Positions 3,162 to 39,600 of a DNA stretch of 64,000 bases are shown one piece after another. The stretch lies in contig NZ_JABDRI010000076.1 in assembly GCF_013041805.1 (NCBI RefSeq), positions 1 through 64,000 of the forward strand, in the 5' to 3' direction. Origin of the DNA: Lutibacter sp. GTDB lineage: Bacteria > Bacteroidota > Bacteroidia > Flavobacteriales > Flavobacteriaceae. The notes beneath the pieces are model-generated. The model worked only from the letters and a program-made list of their open reading frames with translations, was not told where the DNA came from and did not search any database. The position numbers were made by a program, and so were the translations under genes. The stretch's first letter is position 1. Each line of letters starts with the position of its first letter.

Positions 3162-3256
3162 GTGATTCTAAGTAAGCTAAACTTTTGTGCTCTTATAGCG
3201 TTAGACAAAAGACCTAAAATAACAATTTTAAATGAAGAAACTGCTCAAATTAAAAA

Positions 3257-3402
3257 AGTTAAGAAGCTTTTTATAAAAGTACAAGTGCTTTATACAAAAA
3301 GTAACTGAGCTTTTTGAAAAAGTACAAGAGCTTTGCATGAAAAGTACAAGAGCTTTTTGAAAAAAATACAAGAGCTTTTTGAAAAAAATACAAGTGCTTT
3401 TA
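3257..3402. repeat. Tandem array of about seven 21-22 bp units upstream of tex
   Basis: Units begin at 3257, 3278, 3300, 3321, 3343, 3365 and 3387 (last partial). The consensus is close to AGTACAAGAGCTTTTTGAAA plus one or two A. The units at 3343 and 3365 differ at a single base, and the outer ones are more diverged. The array fills most of the gap between the stop of the T9SS protein gene (3431) and the tex start (3161). It is noncoding: the 22-base period breaks any reading frame. Each unit has short inverted arms (AAAAG ... CTTTT), so the transcript could form weak hairpins. The function is unknown. Confidence 0.85.
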
Positions 3403-30551: not shown

Positions 30552-30585
30552 AAAAAGGGTTTATTTAATTAAATAAACCCTTTTT
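30552..30585. terminator. Terminator after the response regulator gene
   Basis: A perfect inverted repeat with arms AAAAAGGGTTTATTTAA and its complement, centred on TTAA, with T-runs at both ends. It overlaps the stop codon of the minus-strand response regulator (30569-30571). Confidence 0.85.
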
Positions 30586-31246
30586 CTTTTGCTTTTAATA
30601 CCAATGCTCTATCATCACCCTCATCAACATCGAAAATTATTTTTAGGTGTTTTTTTCTTTTTTCTAAACCAGTCATTGACATAGGTATAACATTTGGTAA
30701 TTCTTTCATTTTTGTCCCTATTGACATTTCATATAATAACTGCCTATCTATTTTGTCTAACTGAAAATCAACTGAAGATTGCTTGCGGAATAATTCTAAA
30801 ACAGATTTACTATAATAAGGCGAGTTATCTAGCACCGTTTTTATGGATGTTACTAGCTCATCTTTATTAATGTCGTTTTTAATCAAAAACCCATTTGGAT
30901 TTACATTTTTTAGAATAACTTGTATTCTGTAATTATCGTTAAAAGTTGTTGCAACAATAATTTTACACTTAGGCAATAACTGCTTGATCTTAATTCCTAT
31001 ATCTTCTCCAGATAAAATTTTACCATCAGCTGACGGCGGTATTGAAATATCAAGAAATACAAAATCAATTCTATTATTTTTAGAGGCTTTTGTTATTTTT
31101 TGAATAGCATCGTCTGAGTTGTGAACAATATCTATTTTAAACTTTACATTTTCATTTTCCGTTTCAATAAATTCAAAAGCACTCTTATAAGCGTCTGCTA
31201 TAATAGGATGATCGTCAATTATTAGTACTTTATAAATTTTTTTCAT
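30569..31246 (-). CDS. NarL/LuxR-type response regulator
   Basis: 225 residues. The receiver domain is canonical: Asp11/Asp12, phospho-acceptor Asp66 (FVFLDISIPP), Thr100-Thr101 and Lys123 (FLIKND). A short insertion (SADGKILSGED) follows beta-3. The C-terminal helix-turn-helix (about 165-225, LYEMSIGTKMKELPNVIPMS) is LuxR-like but diverged. The ATG at 31246 follows the kinase stop by four bases, marking a co-translated cognate pair. A frame extension to 31261 starts with TTG inside the kinase gene and is rejected. Confidence 0.92.
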   Translation of the reverse strand: MKKIYKVLIIDDHPIIADAYKSAFEFIETENENVKFKIDIVHNSDDAIQKITKASKNNRIDFVFLDISIPPSADGKILSGEDIGIKIKQLLPKCKIIVATTFNDNYRIQVILKNVNPNGFLIKNDINKDELVTSIKTVLDNSPYYSKSVLELFRKQSSVDFQLDKIDRQLLYEMSIGTKMKELPNVIPMSMTGLEKRKKHLKIIFDVDEGDDRALVLKAKEKGFI

Positions 31247-31250
31247 AATC

Positions 31251-33299
31251 CTAATTTTCAATTAAACATGATACAAAGATAGTTGTTCCTTCGTTAATTG
31301 TCGAATCTACATAAAATAACCCATTTAATTTCTGTGCTCTAGACTGCATGTTTTTTAGTCCTATCCCTTTTCTTTTATCGTTAAATTTAAATCCAACACC
31401 ATTGTCTTTTATGGTTAGTTTTAGTAGTTCATCATCTAAATCAAATTGAATAGCTACTTGAGTTGCTTTTGAATATTTAATACAGTTTTGTAATGCTTCT
31501 TGTATAATTCTATAAAAATTAATTTTTATATGATCACTTATTTTATCCCAAAAAATAGTATCACGAGCGTCTAAATTACATTCAAAATTTCCTAATTTAC
31601 TTTTTTCAGTAATCAAGCTTTCTACAATTTTTAAAAAATCTACTTTTGATGATAATACTTCACTTTTTAATTCATGAGAAATTGCTCTTATTTCTTTTTC
31701 TATTGATTGAAGTTCATCTATATAAAATTGATGCTTTTTGGTGTCACTTTCATCTCCTTTAACACTTAAAAAACCTAACCCTATTCTTGTTCCAAAAATT
31801 TTACCAAGTACACCATCATGTAAATCTTCTGATATTCGATGCCTTTCTTTTAAGCGACCTTCCTCTAACTTTGATTGTTGCTTAAGCATTAAAGAAAAAA
31901 TTTCTTCATTAGATTTTTGTTGCTCTCGCTCAAATAGTAATTCCTTATTTTTTGTTCTTTGAACCATTAAAAAATACGAGAGTGAAATAAATAAAAGCGC
32001 TATAAAGGTTCCGATTAAAATTAATACTTTTTGTTGTGAAAGTTTTTCAGTTTCTTCAATATATTCATCAGTTTCAAAACGAATTCTTGTAAACTTGTTT
32101 CGTGCTTTTCGCTCTTCTACTTGAAGGCTATCTTCTAGGTGAACATAATATTTTAAATATTTACTAGAATTTAGCTTATCTATTTTTGAAAGTAATAATA
32201 ACGACTCTAACTTATCTCTATTGTTTTCAACTTTATTAGCCAGGTTTAGCGCCTCTGTAGCTAAATTAATTGCTTGTAAGGTATCTGATTTTGAAGCAAA
32301 AAATTCCGATAAATGTCTTTTAACAATAACAATTCCTTGAGAGTTTTTTAAACTATCCCTTATTTTTAGTGATTTTTCTAAATCTTTAAAAACATTTAAT
32401 GTATCTCCATCTAAAAACTTAGTATATGCAATATTATCGATTAAGCGTGCATAAAAATTAATATCACGTTCTTTTAAATTGCTATTATTTAAAGCCTCTT
32501 CAAAACTTTCTATTGCTTCATCGTACTTGCTAAGTTTTTGATAAACCAACCCCAAATTACTTAAGCTCCATTCTCTAAAGGTACTTTTATCGTTGATTTT
32601 TTTTAAGTATTCTAGGGCTTTTTTATTGTAATATATGGCTCTATCAAATTCTTCCAATTCCATATAAATCAATCCTAAATAATTATAACATTGATATAAG
32701 TCTTTATCTCTATTTAGTTTTTTATAAATTGTAAGCGCTTCAAACATGGAAATTTCGCTACCCGTATAATCTTTTAAACGTCCTTGCGCAAATGCCATAT
32801 TATACAGCATTTTGGCAGTATAAAGCTCATGCTTTATTTTCTTAAAATTTTCATAGGCTTTGTGGTAATGGTAATATGCACTATCCACTACCTCGTTTTT
32901 AGAATAATAAAAAGCATAGTTCCAATGGGCTTCCCCAATTTTTAAGGTATCATGTAACTTATTTGATAAAGACAACGATTTAGCGTTAACTATTTTAAAT
33001 AAGTTTACACTATTTAAATTTACAGCTTCAAATGAAATTTTAGAATAATAATTATTTTTAACTGAATCTGAATGAAGTATATTGGTATTTTCAAAAGCCT
33101 TCTCCAGAGCTTTTTGCCGATCACTTATTACAAGTTTTCTATTTTTAGATTGTTGTATCCAACTATTAATGCTATCAGTAAGATCATTATTAAAAGAAAC
33201 ACTAAAATTCGATGTATCAGAGCAACTCACTATACAAGCAAATAATAAGCTTGCAAAAATAAATTGAATGTATTTAAAACTGTACAATGAAGCTTTCAA
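31251..33299 (-). CDS. TPR-containing sensor histidine kinase (HisKA_3 family)
   Basis: 682 residues. The N-terminal lipoprotein-like signal ends near Cys26 (ACIVSC). A long periplasmic TPR array (about 70-390) follows, then one membrane helix (about 424-446), a coiled segment, a HisKA_3 domain with phospho-acceptor His494 (RHRISEDLHDGV) and an HATPase domain (NGVGF, GIGLKNM). It is paired with the response regulator immediately downstream; the TPRs may sense a protein or peptide. No ATG exists at the start. TTG at 33320 overlaps a TAGCTTTG promoter box, so the TTG at 33299 (MKASLYSFKY) is preferred. Confidence 0.9.
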   Translation of the reverse strand: MKASLYSFKYIQFIFASLLFACIVSCSDTSNFSVSFNNDLTDSINSWIQQSKNRKLVISDRQKALEKAFENTNILHSDSVKNNYYSKISFEAVNLNSVNLFKIVNAKSLSLSNKLHDTLKIGEAHWNYAFYYSKNEVVDSAYYHYHKAYENFKKIKHELYTAKMLYNMAFAQGRLKDYTGSEISMFEALTIYKKLNRDKDLYQCYNYLGLIYMELEEFDRAIYYNKKALEYLKKINDKSTFREWSLSNLGLVYQKLSKYDEAIESFEEALNNSNLKERDINFYARLIDNIAYTKFLDGDTLNVFKDLEKSLKIRDSLKNSQGIVIVKRHLSEFFASKSDTLQAINLATEALNLANKVENNRDKLESLLLLSKIDKLNSSKYLKYYVHLEDSLQVEERKARNKFTRIRFETDEYIEETEKLSQQKVLILIGTFIALLFISLSYFLMVQRTKNKELLFEREQQKSNEEIFSLMLKQQSKLEEGRLKERHRISEDLHDGVLGKIFGTRIGLGFLSVKGDESDTKKHQFYIDELQSIEKEIRAISHELKSEVLSSKVDFLKIVESLITEKSKLGNFECNLDARDTIFWDKISDHIKINFYRIIQEALQNCIKYSKATQVAIQFDLDDELLKLTIKDNGVGFKFNDKRKGIGLKNMQSRAQKLNGLFYVDSTINEGTTIFVSCLIEN

Positions 33300-33317
33300 T
33301 TTTCTGACTTTGAAAAA

Positions 33318-33325
33318 CAAAGCTA
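33318..33325 (-). promoter_or_regulatory. Putative -7 box for the histidine kinase
   Basis: Minus-strand TAGCTTTG matches TAnnTTTG. It lies 18 bases upstream of the preferred TTG start and just after the terminator of the lipoprotein gene, where a new promoter would be expected. Confidence 0.45.
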
Positions 33326-33327
33326 CT

Positions 33328-33361
33328 AAAAAAAGCCTTAAATAAATTTCAAGGCTTTTTT
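33328..33361 (-). terminator. Terminator after the small lipoprotein gene
   Basis: Arms AAAAAAGCCTT (33329-33339) and AAGGCTTTTTT (33351-33361) enclose an 11-base loop. In the minus direction the hairpin is followed by a T-run. It lies 38 bases after the lipoprotein stop and supports that gene as a separate transcript. Confidence 0.8.
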
Positions 33362-33399
33362 AAAACTATTTCGTACTATTAAAGTATGTTTAAAACTCT

Positions 33400-33561
33400 T
33401 TAGTCTCTTGTGTTATCCCAAGTCGCACTTCCATCATCACCTGTTGCGAAAAGTTCATCTTGTGAATAGAGATCTTCATCTGCCGATAAATTATCAGAAG
33501 TACAAGAAGTTAATGCTATAGATAAAATAGAAAATGCGAAAATAAATTTTAATGCTTTCAT
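33400..33561 (-). CDS. Small acidic lipoprotein, 53 residues
   Basis: This is a short gene, easily missed. From the ATG at 33561 it codes for MKALKFIFAFSILSIALTSC, a clean lipoprotein signal with lipobox ALTSC (Cys20). A 33-residue mature part follows, rich in Asp, Ser and Glu (SDNLSADEDLYSQDELFATG ... NTRD). Its own terminator follows (33328-33361). Upstream are a TAATTTTG box (33604-33611) and three 21-bp direct repeats (33641-33703). It is flanked by a histidine kinase gene and a LytTR regulator gene on the same strand. No family was recognised. It may be a secreted signal or regulatory peptide, but this is inference. Confidence 0.8.
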   Translation of the reverse strand: MKALKFIFAFSILSIALTSCTSDNLSADEDLYSQDELFATGDDGSATWDNTRD

Positions 33562-33603
33562 AATATTGGGGTTTAAAATTTGTAATTACTTAATTAGTAA
33601 ACC

Positions 33604-33611
33604 CAAAATTA
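33604..33611 (-). promoter_or_regulatory. Putative -7 box of the small lipoprotein gene
   Basis: Minus-strand TAATTTTG, 42 bases upstream of the start codon. The expected -33 region (about 33631-33638) has no TTTG, which suggests dependence on an activator bound at the adjacent repeats. Confidence 0.5.
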
Positions 33612-33640
33612 ACGAACTAAAAGGTTAAAAAATAATTTAA

Positions 33641-33703
33641 ATACCTTTTATTAGTGTAAACATACCTTTTGTTAGTATAAACATACCTTTTGTTATGTAA
33701 AAC
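33641..33703 (-). promoter_or_regulatory. Three 21-bp direct repeats, candidate LytTR regulator binding sites
   Basis: Units 33641-33661, 33662-33682 and 33683-33703 all begin with ATACCTTTT on the plus strand. Units 1 and 2 agree at 19 of 21 bases, units 2 and 3 at 17 of 21. An inverted copy of the ACCTTTT core is at 33619-33625. LytTR proteins bind 9-bp direct repeats separated by about 12 bases, a 21-bp period, and TACCTTTTG resembles the published LytTR half-site loosely. The array starts 29 bases upstream of the -7 box, the usual activator position. Confidence 0.6.
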
Positions 33704-34428
33704 TAACTTACCGACAAATAAGAATATTCGGATAATGCTTTATTTATATTCCTAATATTATTAATATACGTTTTTGTAAATGGAACTTCGTAACTATTCC
33801 GTTTTATTGTACAAATAGATTTTCCAAACTGAATTCTTGATATAAAATTTTTATTAATAATATAACTTTTATGTATTCTATAAAAATTATTAGGTAATAC
33901 GTCTTGAAAAGTCTTCAATGTTTTAAAAGCGGTAATTCTATTTCCATCATTCATATAAAAATCGGTACTATTATTATCTGCTTTTAAAAAAAGTATCTCG
34001 TCAGTTTTCAAATATTGATAATCTTTATATGATTTTAAGCAGATGTTTTTTCTTGACTTTGCAGGGATTCGTTTCAAAATTTTTAAAATTGACTTTCTTA
34101 TCTCTAATTCTTCTATAGGATTTAATAAAAAGTCGAAAAAACCATTTTTAATAACATCATATACCTTCCCTTTAGAGGAAGATATTGCAATAAAAATTGG
34201 AAAATCATCATTAAACAAATTAAGTTCTTGAGCAAACTTAAAAGGATTATTAAATGTAGAATCAATATTAAAAAAAACTAAATCTGGTGTTTCTCTTAAT
34301 ATTATGTTCATTGCTGAATTGTAGTCACTAGAAGTTCCAATACAATTAAATTCAAAGTAATCTTCTAAAACATCTTTAATACTTTGAATGGTAAAATTAT
34401 CGTGGTCAATAATAAAGTAATTTCGCAT
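33703..34428 (-). CDS. LytTR-family DNA-binding regulator with degenerate receiver domain
   Basis: 241 residues from MRNYFIIDHD. The N-terminal receiver fold (1-115) lacks the phosphorylation chemistry. The acceptor position is Asn54 (LVFFNID where LVFLDI is usual), the second acidic residue is His9 and the conserved Lys is Asn103 (FLLNPIEE). The C-terminal LytTR domain (about 135-235) is intact, with EILFLKADNN and FYRIHKSYIINKNFISRI. It is predicted to bind direct repeats of about 21 bp without classical phospho-control. A longer frame to 34539 is rejected because a TAAATTTG promoter box lies at 34458-34465. Confidence 0.88.
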   Translation of the reverse strand: MRNYFIIDHDNFTIQSIKDVLEDYFEFNCIGTSSDYNSAMNIILRETPDLVFFNIDSTFNNPFKFAQELNLFNDDFPIFIAISSSKGKVYDVIKNGFFDFLLNPIEELEIRKSILKILKRIPAKSRKNICLKSYKDYQYLKTDEILFLKADNNSTDFYMNDGNRITAFKTLKTFQDVLPNNFYRIHKSYIINKNFISRIQFGKSICTIKRNSYEVPFTKTYINNIRNINKALSEYSYLSVS

Positions 34429-34457
34429 AATTTGGAGGGGACAAATTTTGTTCTTAG

Positions 34458-34465
34458 CAAATTTA
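34458..34465 (-). promoter_or_regulatory. Putative -7 box for the LytTR gene
   Basis: Minus-strand TAAATTTG, an exact TAnnTTTG match, 30 bases upstream of the ATG at 34428. It fixes the short form of the protein as more likely. Confidence 0.5.
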
Positions 34466-34642
34466 CTAAAAATTTCAAGAAATATTGTATGGTTTCTCCT
34501 TCCTTTTTTTATGGTAAAATCTTTAAAGACATGGATCAATAGTATTAATTTTATAGATATAATCTATCTATGATAGATTCTTTTAAGTTAACCCCCTTTT
34601 AAGACATACTTATCTATTAATTAAATTTTAGGTTAACACAAA

Positions 34643-34840
34643 ATGAAGAAGAAAATCAATAAATATAAAAAATCAAAAACCCCTACAAACATGAAAAAAA
34701 ATACTAACACAAATTCTAAAAATAGCAATTACTGCTCAGAAAATTCTAAAAATAGTACTTCTGAAAATAATCAAGATCTTAAAAAAAATAGCTATCCAAG
34801 TGATATTCTAGGTTTATTTCAGCGCTTAGGGATTGAGTAA
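34643..34840 (+). CDS. Possible small Lys/Asn/Ser-rich peptide gene
   Basis: 65 residues from the ATG at 34643, or 49 from an internal ATG at 34691. It is basic and very rich in K, N, S and T, with an in-frame 30-base direct repeat giving NSKNS twice, one Cys, and a less biased end (YPSDILGLFQRLGIE). There is no signal peptide. It diverges from the LytTR gene and is followed by a strong hairpin at 34929. The composition could also come from noncoding AT-rich DNA, so reality is uncertain. Confidence 0.35.
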   Translation: MKKKINKYKKSKTPTNMKKNTNTNSKNSNYCSENSKNSTSENNQDLKKNSYPSDILGLFQRLGIE

Positions 34841-34928
34841 ATCCACTATTAAATAGTCTAAACTAACTAATAATGTAAGTCTATACTCCTAAAATTTAAT
34901 TCATTATTTTAAAAGTTCCATAAATAAC

Positions 34929-36681: not shown

Positions 36682-39600
36682 TTAAAATGATACGTTTAAA
36701 CCTACTGAGAAAATTCTTGAAGGATTAAAATCATTACCTGCTGCAGTTCCTGCTAAAGAGTATTGAGGGTCTAAACCATCCCTTTTACTTTTCAAAAATA
36801 AATTTTCTCCAGTAACAGAAAGTCTTAAATTGTCAACTCCTATTTTGTTAGTAATAGAACTATCAAAAGAGTATCCTAAGTTAATATTCTTAAGTGCCCA
36901 AAACGAAGCATCTGTTAAAAAACGAGTAGATTGAGATTGTACTAAATCAACATTTCCATTTTCTAATCTAGGTACACTTGTAACATCTCCAGGTGCACGC
37001 CATGCGTTTAAAATATCTGGGTGGTAAGATCTTCCAAAAGTACCACTGTGCATCATTGCTGAATATCCATTATCTAAAACTTTTCCTCCAATACCATAAG
37101 TTATTAAAACATTTAAATTAAATCCTTTATAACTAAAGCTATTTGTAATTGAACCTAAAAGATCTGGCAAGGTAGAATCTCCTGTGTAGGCTCTTTCTGT
37201 ATCTTGCCAATCGTTTGTTGTTTCTTGCTCACCATTTGCATCTAAAACAGGTACACTGTTACCATCATCATCTATTTCAAACATTAAAAATAATTGATCA
37301 CCTGTTGCAGGGTCTACACCTGCTGTATGAAGTAAGAAGAAATCATATCTTGATCTACCTATTTCCCATCTTTTAGAACCATTTACAAATGGATCTGGCA
37401 AACTTGTAATTTCGTTTTTAAATGTTGAACCTTGTAATGTTAAGTCCCATTTAAAATCAAGCGTATTTACTAAATGTCCTGTTAAACCAACTTCCCATCC
37501 TGAATTATACATATCAGCTACGTTTGCAGGATATGAATTCAATCCATTACTCAATGCAATTGGTAAATCATATAAAAGATCTGAAGAATTTCTTTTGTAA
37601 TATTCTATCGATCCATCTATTAAATTATCGAATAAACCAAACTCTAAAGCTACATCAAAACTTTCAACAGTTTCCCATTGTAAATTTGCATTCCCTATTT
37701 CACTCCATATAATTGCAGGACTGGCAGCATTAGATGTTAAACCATATCTAGGTTGTGATAAGAAAAAGTCTCCTAAATCATCATTACCAACTTCACCGTA
37801 AGATCCTCTTAATTTTAAATCATCTACAAATGTTACATTTTCCATAAAATCTTCTTGATCAATTCTCCAAGAAGCACCTACAGAATAAAAGTTACCCCAT
37901 CTTGCATCTGCACTAAACACAGAAGAACCATCTCTTCTTGCAGAAGCACTTAAATAATATTTATTATCAAAATTATAGTTAGCTCTTAAAAAATAACCTT
38001 CGATAGTTTTATTTGTTGTTGCACCACCTAAACTAATGATATTTGCAAAATTGTCAAATTCATAAATTCCTTCAGCAGTTTGTTCAATAGCCATACCATT
38101 CATAGAAGAAAATTGTCTGTCAAAACTTTCATGTCCCGCCGTAATTTCTAAATTATGCAGATCGTTAAAAGTTTTATTGTATGATAAAATTTGATTGAAG
38201 TTTTCTACCTCTCTTCGAGATCTTGTTTCTGCGTATCTTCCTGTAGGTTGCGCATCTCCAATAATATTATTTTCGTATTCCTTACTTAGTAATTCATTGA
38301 TATCTCTACCGTAGTTAACTCTAAAGTTAAGACCATCTACTATTTTGAAGTCTGCGTAATATCTAAAACCATACGTATTATTTCTAGTACGTTCATCATT
38401 TAATAATAATTCTTGAAGTGCGTGACGACCTTGACTAATTGGTCTTGTATTGATATTATATTCTGAATATCCTTCACCATTATCAAAAACAGGATTTCCA
38501 GCTGCATCAAGTACTAAATTTCCTTGCAAATCATTCACATATACTGGATACACTGAACCTATGTTTTTAGCAAAACCAAATGGGTTTACTATACTTCCAG
38601 AACCTGCAGATGTTGGGCCTGTAGAATTAGAAATAGTAATATTAGCACTACCTCCCATACTTATTCTGTCATTCACATCAAAATCAGCATTTAAACGAGT
38701 TGTTAAACGGTCGAATGATGTTGTAACCACATATCCTTCTTCATCTAAATAAGAAGCAGAGAAAAATACTTTATGCTTGTCTCCACCACCTGCAATGTTT
38801 ATATTGTAATTTGATCTAACAGCATTTTGTTCCATTTCATCGTACCAATCTAAACCTTTATAAATTACATTTGCATTTGGATTTAAACGCCCGTCAGTCC
38901 CTACAATTTGATCATTAGGCACATCGAAAGGATTATACCCTAATTGACTAAAAATATTTGCTGATGCATATGCTGGATCTCCACCACCTGCACTTGAATT
39001 TTTAAGCGCTTCCCACATAGTTTCATAATACTGACCAGGGGTAATTTCTTCAAAATTAGGTATACCTCTATCTACTAAACCATACTGAGTTGAAACACTT
39101 GCTTTTATATCTCCCTTAGTACCACTTTTTGTTGTGATTAAAACCACACCATTTGCAGCCCTAGAACCATATAATGAAGTAGAAGCAGCATCTTTAAGTA
39201 TGGTAAACGATGCAATATCTTCTTGGTTAATTGTACTTAAAGCACCTTCATATTGCATACCATCTACAATATATAGTGGCGTTGCGTTACCATTAAGAGT
39301 TCCAACACCACGAATAATAATTCCTGGAGACGAACCTGGCTGCCCAGAAGCTGAAGTAAATTGTACCCCAGTTGCTTTACCTTCAATCGCTGCGATTGGA
39401 GAAGTAACATTTCTAATAGCTAAATCTTCTGATCCAATTACACTAGCAGATCCTGTAAAGGCTTCTTTTGTAGATGTACCATAAGCCGTTACAATAACTT
39501 CATCAAGTAAATTTGCATCTTCTTGCATTGTAACATTTAATGTACTACTTGCCCCAACTTTGACATCCTTAGATTTCATACCCATATATGAGAATCTTAG

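Follow-up and report, generated by a model that had tools for sequence, protein, structure and literature searches.

A conserved LytTR, small-peptide and TPR-kinase gene cluster of Flavobacteriaceae that looks like a peptide-based signalling system

The window analysed here (64,000 nucleotides from a Lutibacter sp.) encodes four neighbouring genes on the minus strand: a LytTR regulator (33703–34428), a small gene (33400–33561), a histidine kinase (31251–33320), and a response regulator (30569–31246). The LytTR product joins a degenerate receiver, with Asn54 at the expected phospho-Asp position, to a LytTR DNA-binding domain (PF04397; E 8.4e-15, 55.2 bits against a cut-off of 22.6); the receiver matched Response_reg at 2.9e-5, under the curated cut-off. 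The small gene encodes a 53-residue lipoprotein-type precursor with the lipobox LTSC (recognised by eye), as the sequence-only reading of this DNA had proposed, and its product matched no Pfam or NCBIfam family above that family's cut-off. The kinase carries HisKA_3 and HATPase_c domains (Pfam) behind a TPR region (32061–33221, minus strand) that precedes a hydrophobic helix (by eye) and is presumably a periplasmic sensor; the proposal developed below, that this kinase is a peptide receptor, draws on its place beside the small gene in relatives as well. At residue 33 it has a Cys at a lipobox-like place that is conserved in >85% of the rows covering it, and the sensor may thus be lipid-anchored too. 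The response regulator, the presumed partner of the kinase, retains its phospho-Asp and has an output domain that is weakly LuxR-like (GerE 0.0099 in one relative, below cut-off). On the plus strand, a 65-aa Lys/Asn-rich open reading frame (ORF; 34643–34840) lies divergently to the LytTR gene and has no Pfam match at E 0.1.

Three head-to-tail 21-bp units (33641–33661, 33662–33682, and 33683–33703; identity to the first copy of 100, 90, and 76%; TRF score 101) follow the LytTR gene, confirming the direct repeats first reported from the letters of the sequence. They represent three candidate LytTR-type operator sites on the minus strand with a period of 21 bp and core starts at 33697, 33676, and 33655. 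The array begins at 33703, the last base of the LytTR stop codon, and spans just 62 of the 141 bases between the LytTR gene and the small gene, rather than filling that gap as had been stated. The other details of the promoter region were borne out: a box, TAATTTTG (33604–33611, minus strand), which we take to be of the Bacteroidota -7 type, follows the array at 29 bases and the third site at 44 nt, and no TTTG is visible by eye at -33. A sigma-70 promoter scan performed no better than it did on shuffled sequences (13 found versus a mean of 11.5). Within the same genome, a two-site array pattern with up to three mismatches yielded two matches at the array and one elsewhere; the reversed control yielded none.

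To place these features among relatives, we searched 199 genomes of the family with the LytTR protein of the window and took 56 loci from 53 of them. Further loci comprised 20 from the same genus, 20 from one large genus (g127), and seven more. We infer that g127 is Flavobacterium; named Flavobacterium loci have the same precursor type. Across Flavobacteriaceae the LytTR gene is followed on its own strand by the peptide, TPR kinase, and response-regulator genes, in that conserved order, with a kinase match downstream in 100 of the 103 other loci and a response-regulator match in 95. Nine of the 103 loci are incomplete: contig ends occur in six, while L034 is without kinase and peptide, L134 without a kinase or regulator match, and L165 without a regulator match within 4 kb. 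In two loci (L083 and L145), the peptide frame is broken and the LytTR, kinase, and regulator frames are open; these are possibly signal-less strains or sequencing errors.

In a set of named loci, the best 80 of at least 482, 74 had a kinase match and 68 a regulator match. With the window added, the family counts were 79 for LytTR, 75 for the kinase, and 71 for the response regulator, against 30 for the next neighbour family; this set overlaps the other genome samples, and its counts are not independent of them. Holders include Zobellia, Maribacter, Arenibacter, Muricauda-type genera, Aquimarina, Cellulophaga, Dokdonia, and many Flavobacterium. At E ≤1e-25, and with the window's own genome included, 24 of 38 same-genus genomes had a LytTR match (21 at ≥60% identity, the rest near 38%), as did 34 of 296 genomes drawn from the order and 28 of 395 drawn from the phylum, all of them within the family. 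Two modules with different peptides occur in one genome in G156, G021, and G027, and one locus (L067, from G032) has two LytTR genes.

The 21-bp spacing is conserved across these loci. In a pattern-free test of the family's intergenic regions (no more than 300 nt apiece, with the final bases of the LytTR gene; window left out), a spacing of 21 with a match of at least 8 of 10 was found in 33 of 54 relatives; ten shuffle sets averaged 5.7 and reached 10 at most, and the other spacings between 8 and 60 were each matched in 10 of the 54 regions or fewer. An array score based on a pattern picked by eye from the very loci that it scored was 18 or higher in 60 of 99 regions, whereas 20 shuffle sets gave 2–10 of 99 (mean 5.6); peptide starts had been set by hand for six and four loci in two of the array comparisons. 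The remaining 39 regions scored below 18 and included 18 of the 19 scored loci among L146–L165, which suggests that the operator there has changed or been lost. Alignment of relatives reveals a conserved part of about 13 bases per unit (near TTYACTMAYARAA) and a varying spacer, near-identical spacers like those of the window being confined to some loci of the same genus.

When the 60 arrays were aligned on their repeats alone, conservation of letters inside the sites was partly by construction, and a second conserved block, which the score does not use, appeared 44 nt past the third site (T in 53 at +44, A in 53 at +45, T in 57 at +48, T in 60 at +49, and G in 43 at +51; n = 60). A strict TAnnTTTN box, sought 25–75 nt away, was found in 20 of the 60 arrays at 44 nt and in one at 45 nt, and at six other distances once each. 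This fixed distance fits an activator bound at a set position upstream of a Bacteroidota -7 element. Collectively, the three repeats look like a conserved LytTR operator, with predicted binding, in front of the small gene. The sequence-only reading had suggested that the LytTR protein switches on the small gene from these repeats and that related genomes be searched for the gene trio and the repeats; both are conserved across genera of Flavobacteriaceae, as are the sites, their spacing, and the distance to the promoter, in agreement with such a role.

The same reading had proposed that the array may also affect the end of the LytTR transcript, a suggestion for which there was no sign, in that a terminator scan of 33200–34900 listed none. 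That scan also missed an inverted repeat resembling a terminator hairpin at 33329–33361 (minus strand), in the gap between the peptide and kinase genes, and it is this later position that is conserved: a terminator-like hairpin within 170 nt past the peptide stop was present in 81 of 98 loci and in none of 98 mononucleotide-shuffled counterparts (one shuffle each). Together with its own promoter box, this suggests that the small gene carries its own promoter and terminator within the cluster.

Related arrays occur elsewhere. In the genome of the window, a two-site array precedes a CAP-domain (PF00188) lipoprotein gene by about 220 nt (L176, 3400–3483; G000:C54, sites 36896–36928), with TACATTTG 55 nt past the second site. 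Similar arrays precede CAP genes of same-genus genomes, some of which are without the peptide module, and another precedes a CAP gene in G202. We considered these genes as a regulon of the LytTR protein described here and rejected them as evidence for it, because such arrays are also present in genomes with no LytTR match at E 1e-25 (L214, L220, L189, L204, and L190). They are probably a separate LytTR regulon.

These arrays bear on an alternative explanation, namely that the repeats at the window locus are the operator of another LytTR paralogue and that the small gene is unrelated to the kinase. The occurrence of related 21-bp arrays before CAP-domain genes, also in genomes that have no close match to this protein, indicates that other LytTR proteins probably use similar sites. 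However, no more than some 12 nt usually separate the array from the stop of this particular LytTR gene, the C of the core is missing (by eye) from many CAP-gene arrays, and the four genes stay together across genera. We therefore consider this explanation very improbable.

The precursors themselves have two parts, a steadier leader and a C-terminus that changes fast. A lipobox-like motif was identified in 77 of 102 precursors, three of which were entered by hand for this and the tandem-repeat count; those without it comprise 19 of the 20 loci L146–L165, L087, and five others. A repeated stretch of at least nine residues at 80% identity was present in 17 of the 102 (in shuffled sets, none in nine sets and one in one), and strict tandem repeats of two to six copies were present in 12 (none in 20 shuffle sets). 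Among the named loci (best 80 of at least 482), 11 were dropped from the count since the chosen ORF was implausible or missing, and 19 of the 69 remaining precursors had repeats, compared to none in five shuffle sets. Copy numbers reached ten in Zobellia barbeyronii (L261), seven in an uncultured Dokdonia (L291), and five each in Arenibacter troitsensis (L273) and Flavobacterium frigidarium (L331). Repeat units are 12–29 residues long, mostly 12–20.

The window precursor has one core copy only. Like other single-copy precursors, it ends in a stretch of the same style as the repeated units, and from this style and position we propose its last 15 residues, ATGDDGSATWDNTRD (33403–33447, minus strand), as the signal core. 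Repeated and fast-changing cores behind a steadier leader are as expected for a peptide signal or effector, and the small product looks like a peptide-signal precursor with a repeatable core.

Alternatively, the peptide could be an antibacterial or RiPP-like product of which the LytTR and kinase genes are the regulators: some cores contain CxxC pairs, bacteriocin genes of Streptococcus mutans are activated by two LytTR regulators according to an excerpt of PMC6193735, and part of PMC12636315 describes a RiPP routed through the lipoprotein pathway. Against this explanation, no dedicated protease, exporter, or modification enzyme recurs beside the module among ORFs of at least 130 aa, and core change tracks the sensor alone in the family set (below), such that we regard an antibacterial or RiPP-like role as improbable. 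The L067 precursor has six CDDC-type cores, and this six-repeat peptide is the one among the relatives' peptides scanned that passes a Pfam zinc-ribbon cut-off, which no single stretch of it does; we read the match as a composition effect.

The TPR half of the kinase varies more than the kinase half (mean pairwise identity of 0.26–0.35 versus 0.44–0.49; 53 rows). Partial Mantel correlations between core and TPR distances, with the kinase distance removed, were 0.26 in the family set (n = 45), 0.68 in the same-genus set (n = 13), and 0.35 in the g127 set (n = 18), with p = 0.002 in each, the minimum for 499 permutations and a value with which 999 permutations agree, although for related sequences, with their shared ancestry, this test can return permutation p-values that are too low. 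Left out were L034, L083, L145, L161, L165, and L168–L172, in which peptides are broken, missing, or odd, and loci whose TPR part was poorly covered or in which a long kinase frame was missing.

Within the family set, the core was not significantly linked to the kinase or linker, to the receiver or domain of LytTR, or to the response regulator. The signal peptide of the same precursors followed the kinase, linker, LytTR receiver and domain, and response regulator and did not significantly follow the TPR part (p = 0.064). The other sets were less clean: in the same genus the core also tracked the response regulator and the signal peptide also tracked the TPR part, and in g127 the core also tracked the kinase, LytTR domain, and response regulator. 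Across the three sets, 59 of 60 partial correlations were positive in 30-residue windows within residues 106–420, and from residue 421 on, the start of the membrane helix by eye, 44 of 48 were at or below 0.15 and four kinase windows ranged from 0.19 to 0.38, these sliding windows carrying no per-window significance. That the core co-diverges mainly with the TPR sensor lends indirect support to the earlier claim that the kinase could sense the small product.

Co-divergence with the sensor also fits an intact lipoprotein that is not a released signal but acts as a membrane-anchored accessory subunit and gates the TPR kinase in the same cell, and the lipobox-like motif in 77 of 102 precursors would suit such a subunit. 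However, the motif is absent from 19 of the 20 precursors of L146–L165 and from six others, and units of 12–29 residues repeated up to six times, with up to ten copies in Zobellia, fit release of the unit better. An accessory subunit is therefore unlikely in our view, if less so than either of the explanations set out above.

A structural model of the TPR region, built from a 47-row alignment (pLDDT 93.3), had as its leading matches TPR domains of LGN/Pins in partner-bound entries (LGN-peptide complexes), followed by Rap-CSF, the pLS20 Rap with Phr*, RapI (TM 0.71), and NprR. A profile of its sequence placed designed TPR proteins at the top and RapF among the matches. The model resembles peptide-binding TPR domains, including RRNPP pheromone receptors, a likeness that is supporting only, since TPR folds are generic.

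The two regulators differ in their capacity for phosphorylation. The phospho-Asp column of the LytTR receiver (n = 104) holds N in 56 rows, E in 25, D in 15, H in four, R in two, and C and S in one each, with all 20 rows of L146–L165 among the 25 with E. The corresponding Asp of the response regulator is present in 96 of 96. The LytTR receiver is thus mostly a pseudo-receiver; the kinase most likely signals to the response regulator, and the LytTR protein probably answers to its own level or some other input rather than to phosphate.

We consider it fairly probable that these genes constitute a peptide-signalling module in which the LytTR protein switches on the peptide gene, whose product is sensed by the TPR kinase. 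Specifically, the LytTR protein would bind the three phased sites and activate the promoter of the small gene, a step with strong comparative evidence behind it. Export of the precursor would take the lipoprotein route or, for almost every g127 locus, that of an ordinary secreted protein. A core of mostly 12–20 residues at the C-terminus of the precursor would be released or displayed as the signal, and the TPR superhelix of the kinase would, as co-divergence suggests, bind the core and drive the adjacent response regulator. Feedback of the response regulator on the LytTR gene is one possibility. The original observation was real, and the module is larger than first described, with a probable peptide precursor with repeated cores, a response regulator, and the usual absence of the LytTR receiver Asp now added. 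The broader proposition, on which we find the case evenly balanced, is that the module represents a new, genetically encoded class of cell–cell signalling in Bacteroidota, with lipoprotein or Sec-exported precursors bearing one to ten copies of short, species-specific peptides, matched periplasmic TPR kinases, and a dedicated pseudo-receiver LytTR amplifier.

Several known systems share parts of this arrangement. The Agr system (AgrD-AgrC-AgrA) likewise has a small variable peptide gene, an adjacent sensor kinase, and a LytTR regulator that acts on direct repeats; its sensor, AgrC, is polytopic. In contrast to Agr, the module has a TPR sensor, a separate response regulator, and a LytTR protein mostly without phospho-Asp, and no conserved processing gene was seen with it. 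Among its neighbour families, from which the presence of an AgrB-type protease was judged, no further one is widely conserved, and the LytTR protein scored 28.8 bits against the AgrA model NF046049, for which the cut-off is 400. The modelled TPR superhelix resembles Rap and NprR of the RRNPP receptors (Rap, NprR, PlcR, and PrgX), whereas in the module the TPR region is the sensor part of a histidine kinase and import of the peptide may not be required.

FimS/FimR of Porphyromonas gingivalis is likewise a TPR histidine kinase with a response regulator, and the NCBIfam FimS model matched the TPR part at E 4.4e-14 (51.7 bits, far below its cut-off of 600). Unlike the module, FimS/FimR is presented in the excerpts at hand without a LytTR or peptide gene. 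The signal of FimS is not known, and a polypeptide ligand has been suggested (PMC11053733, in part). In LRS, direct repeats are mostly 12 bp apart and upstream of the regulated promoter (excerpt of PMC6193735), and the LytTR gene is paired with that of an inhibitory membrane protein, whereas the partners in the module are a peptide, a kinase, and a regulator. The RiPP-lipoprotein DybA resembles the small product in that a small precursor takes the lipoprotein route, but DybA is modified by the enzyme DybH (PMC12636315, in part) and no such enzyme recurs beside the module. Accounts of peptide signals come mostly from Gram-positive bacteria; part of PMC13419125 names peptides as the signals of Gram-positives and N-acyl-cyclolysines as those of Bacteroidota. 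We recognised no earlier description of such a module in search listings of the open-licence literature; the repeats, peptide gene, and kinase together look like an undescribed peptide-based signalling system.

Flavobacteriaceae are polysaccharide degraders. If the proposed system is real, it would represent a widespread private language for this family and would offer many natural peptide-receptor pairs for study. By extension, it would point to a class of ligand for TPR kinases such as FimS, an extension against which counts the action of a foreign peptide on P. gingivalis without FimS/FimR (excerpt of PMC5431200). With a candidate ligand encoded next to the kinase, the question of what TPR kinases sense becomes directly testable.

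Elsewhere in the window, a further array (3252–3401) comprises about seven imperfect 22-bp repeats with the consensus AAAAAAGTACAAGAGCTTTTTA.
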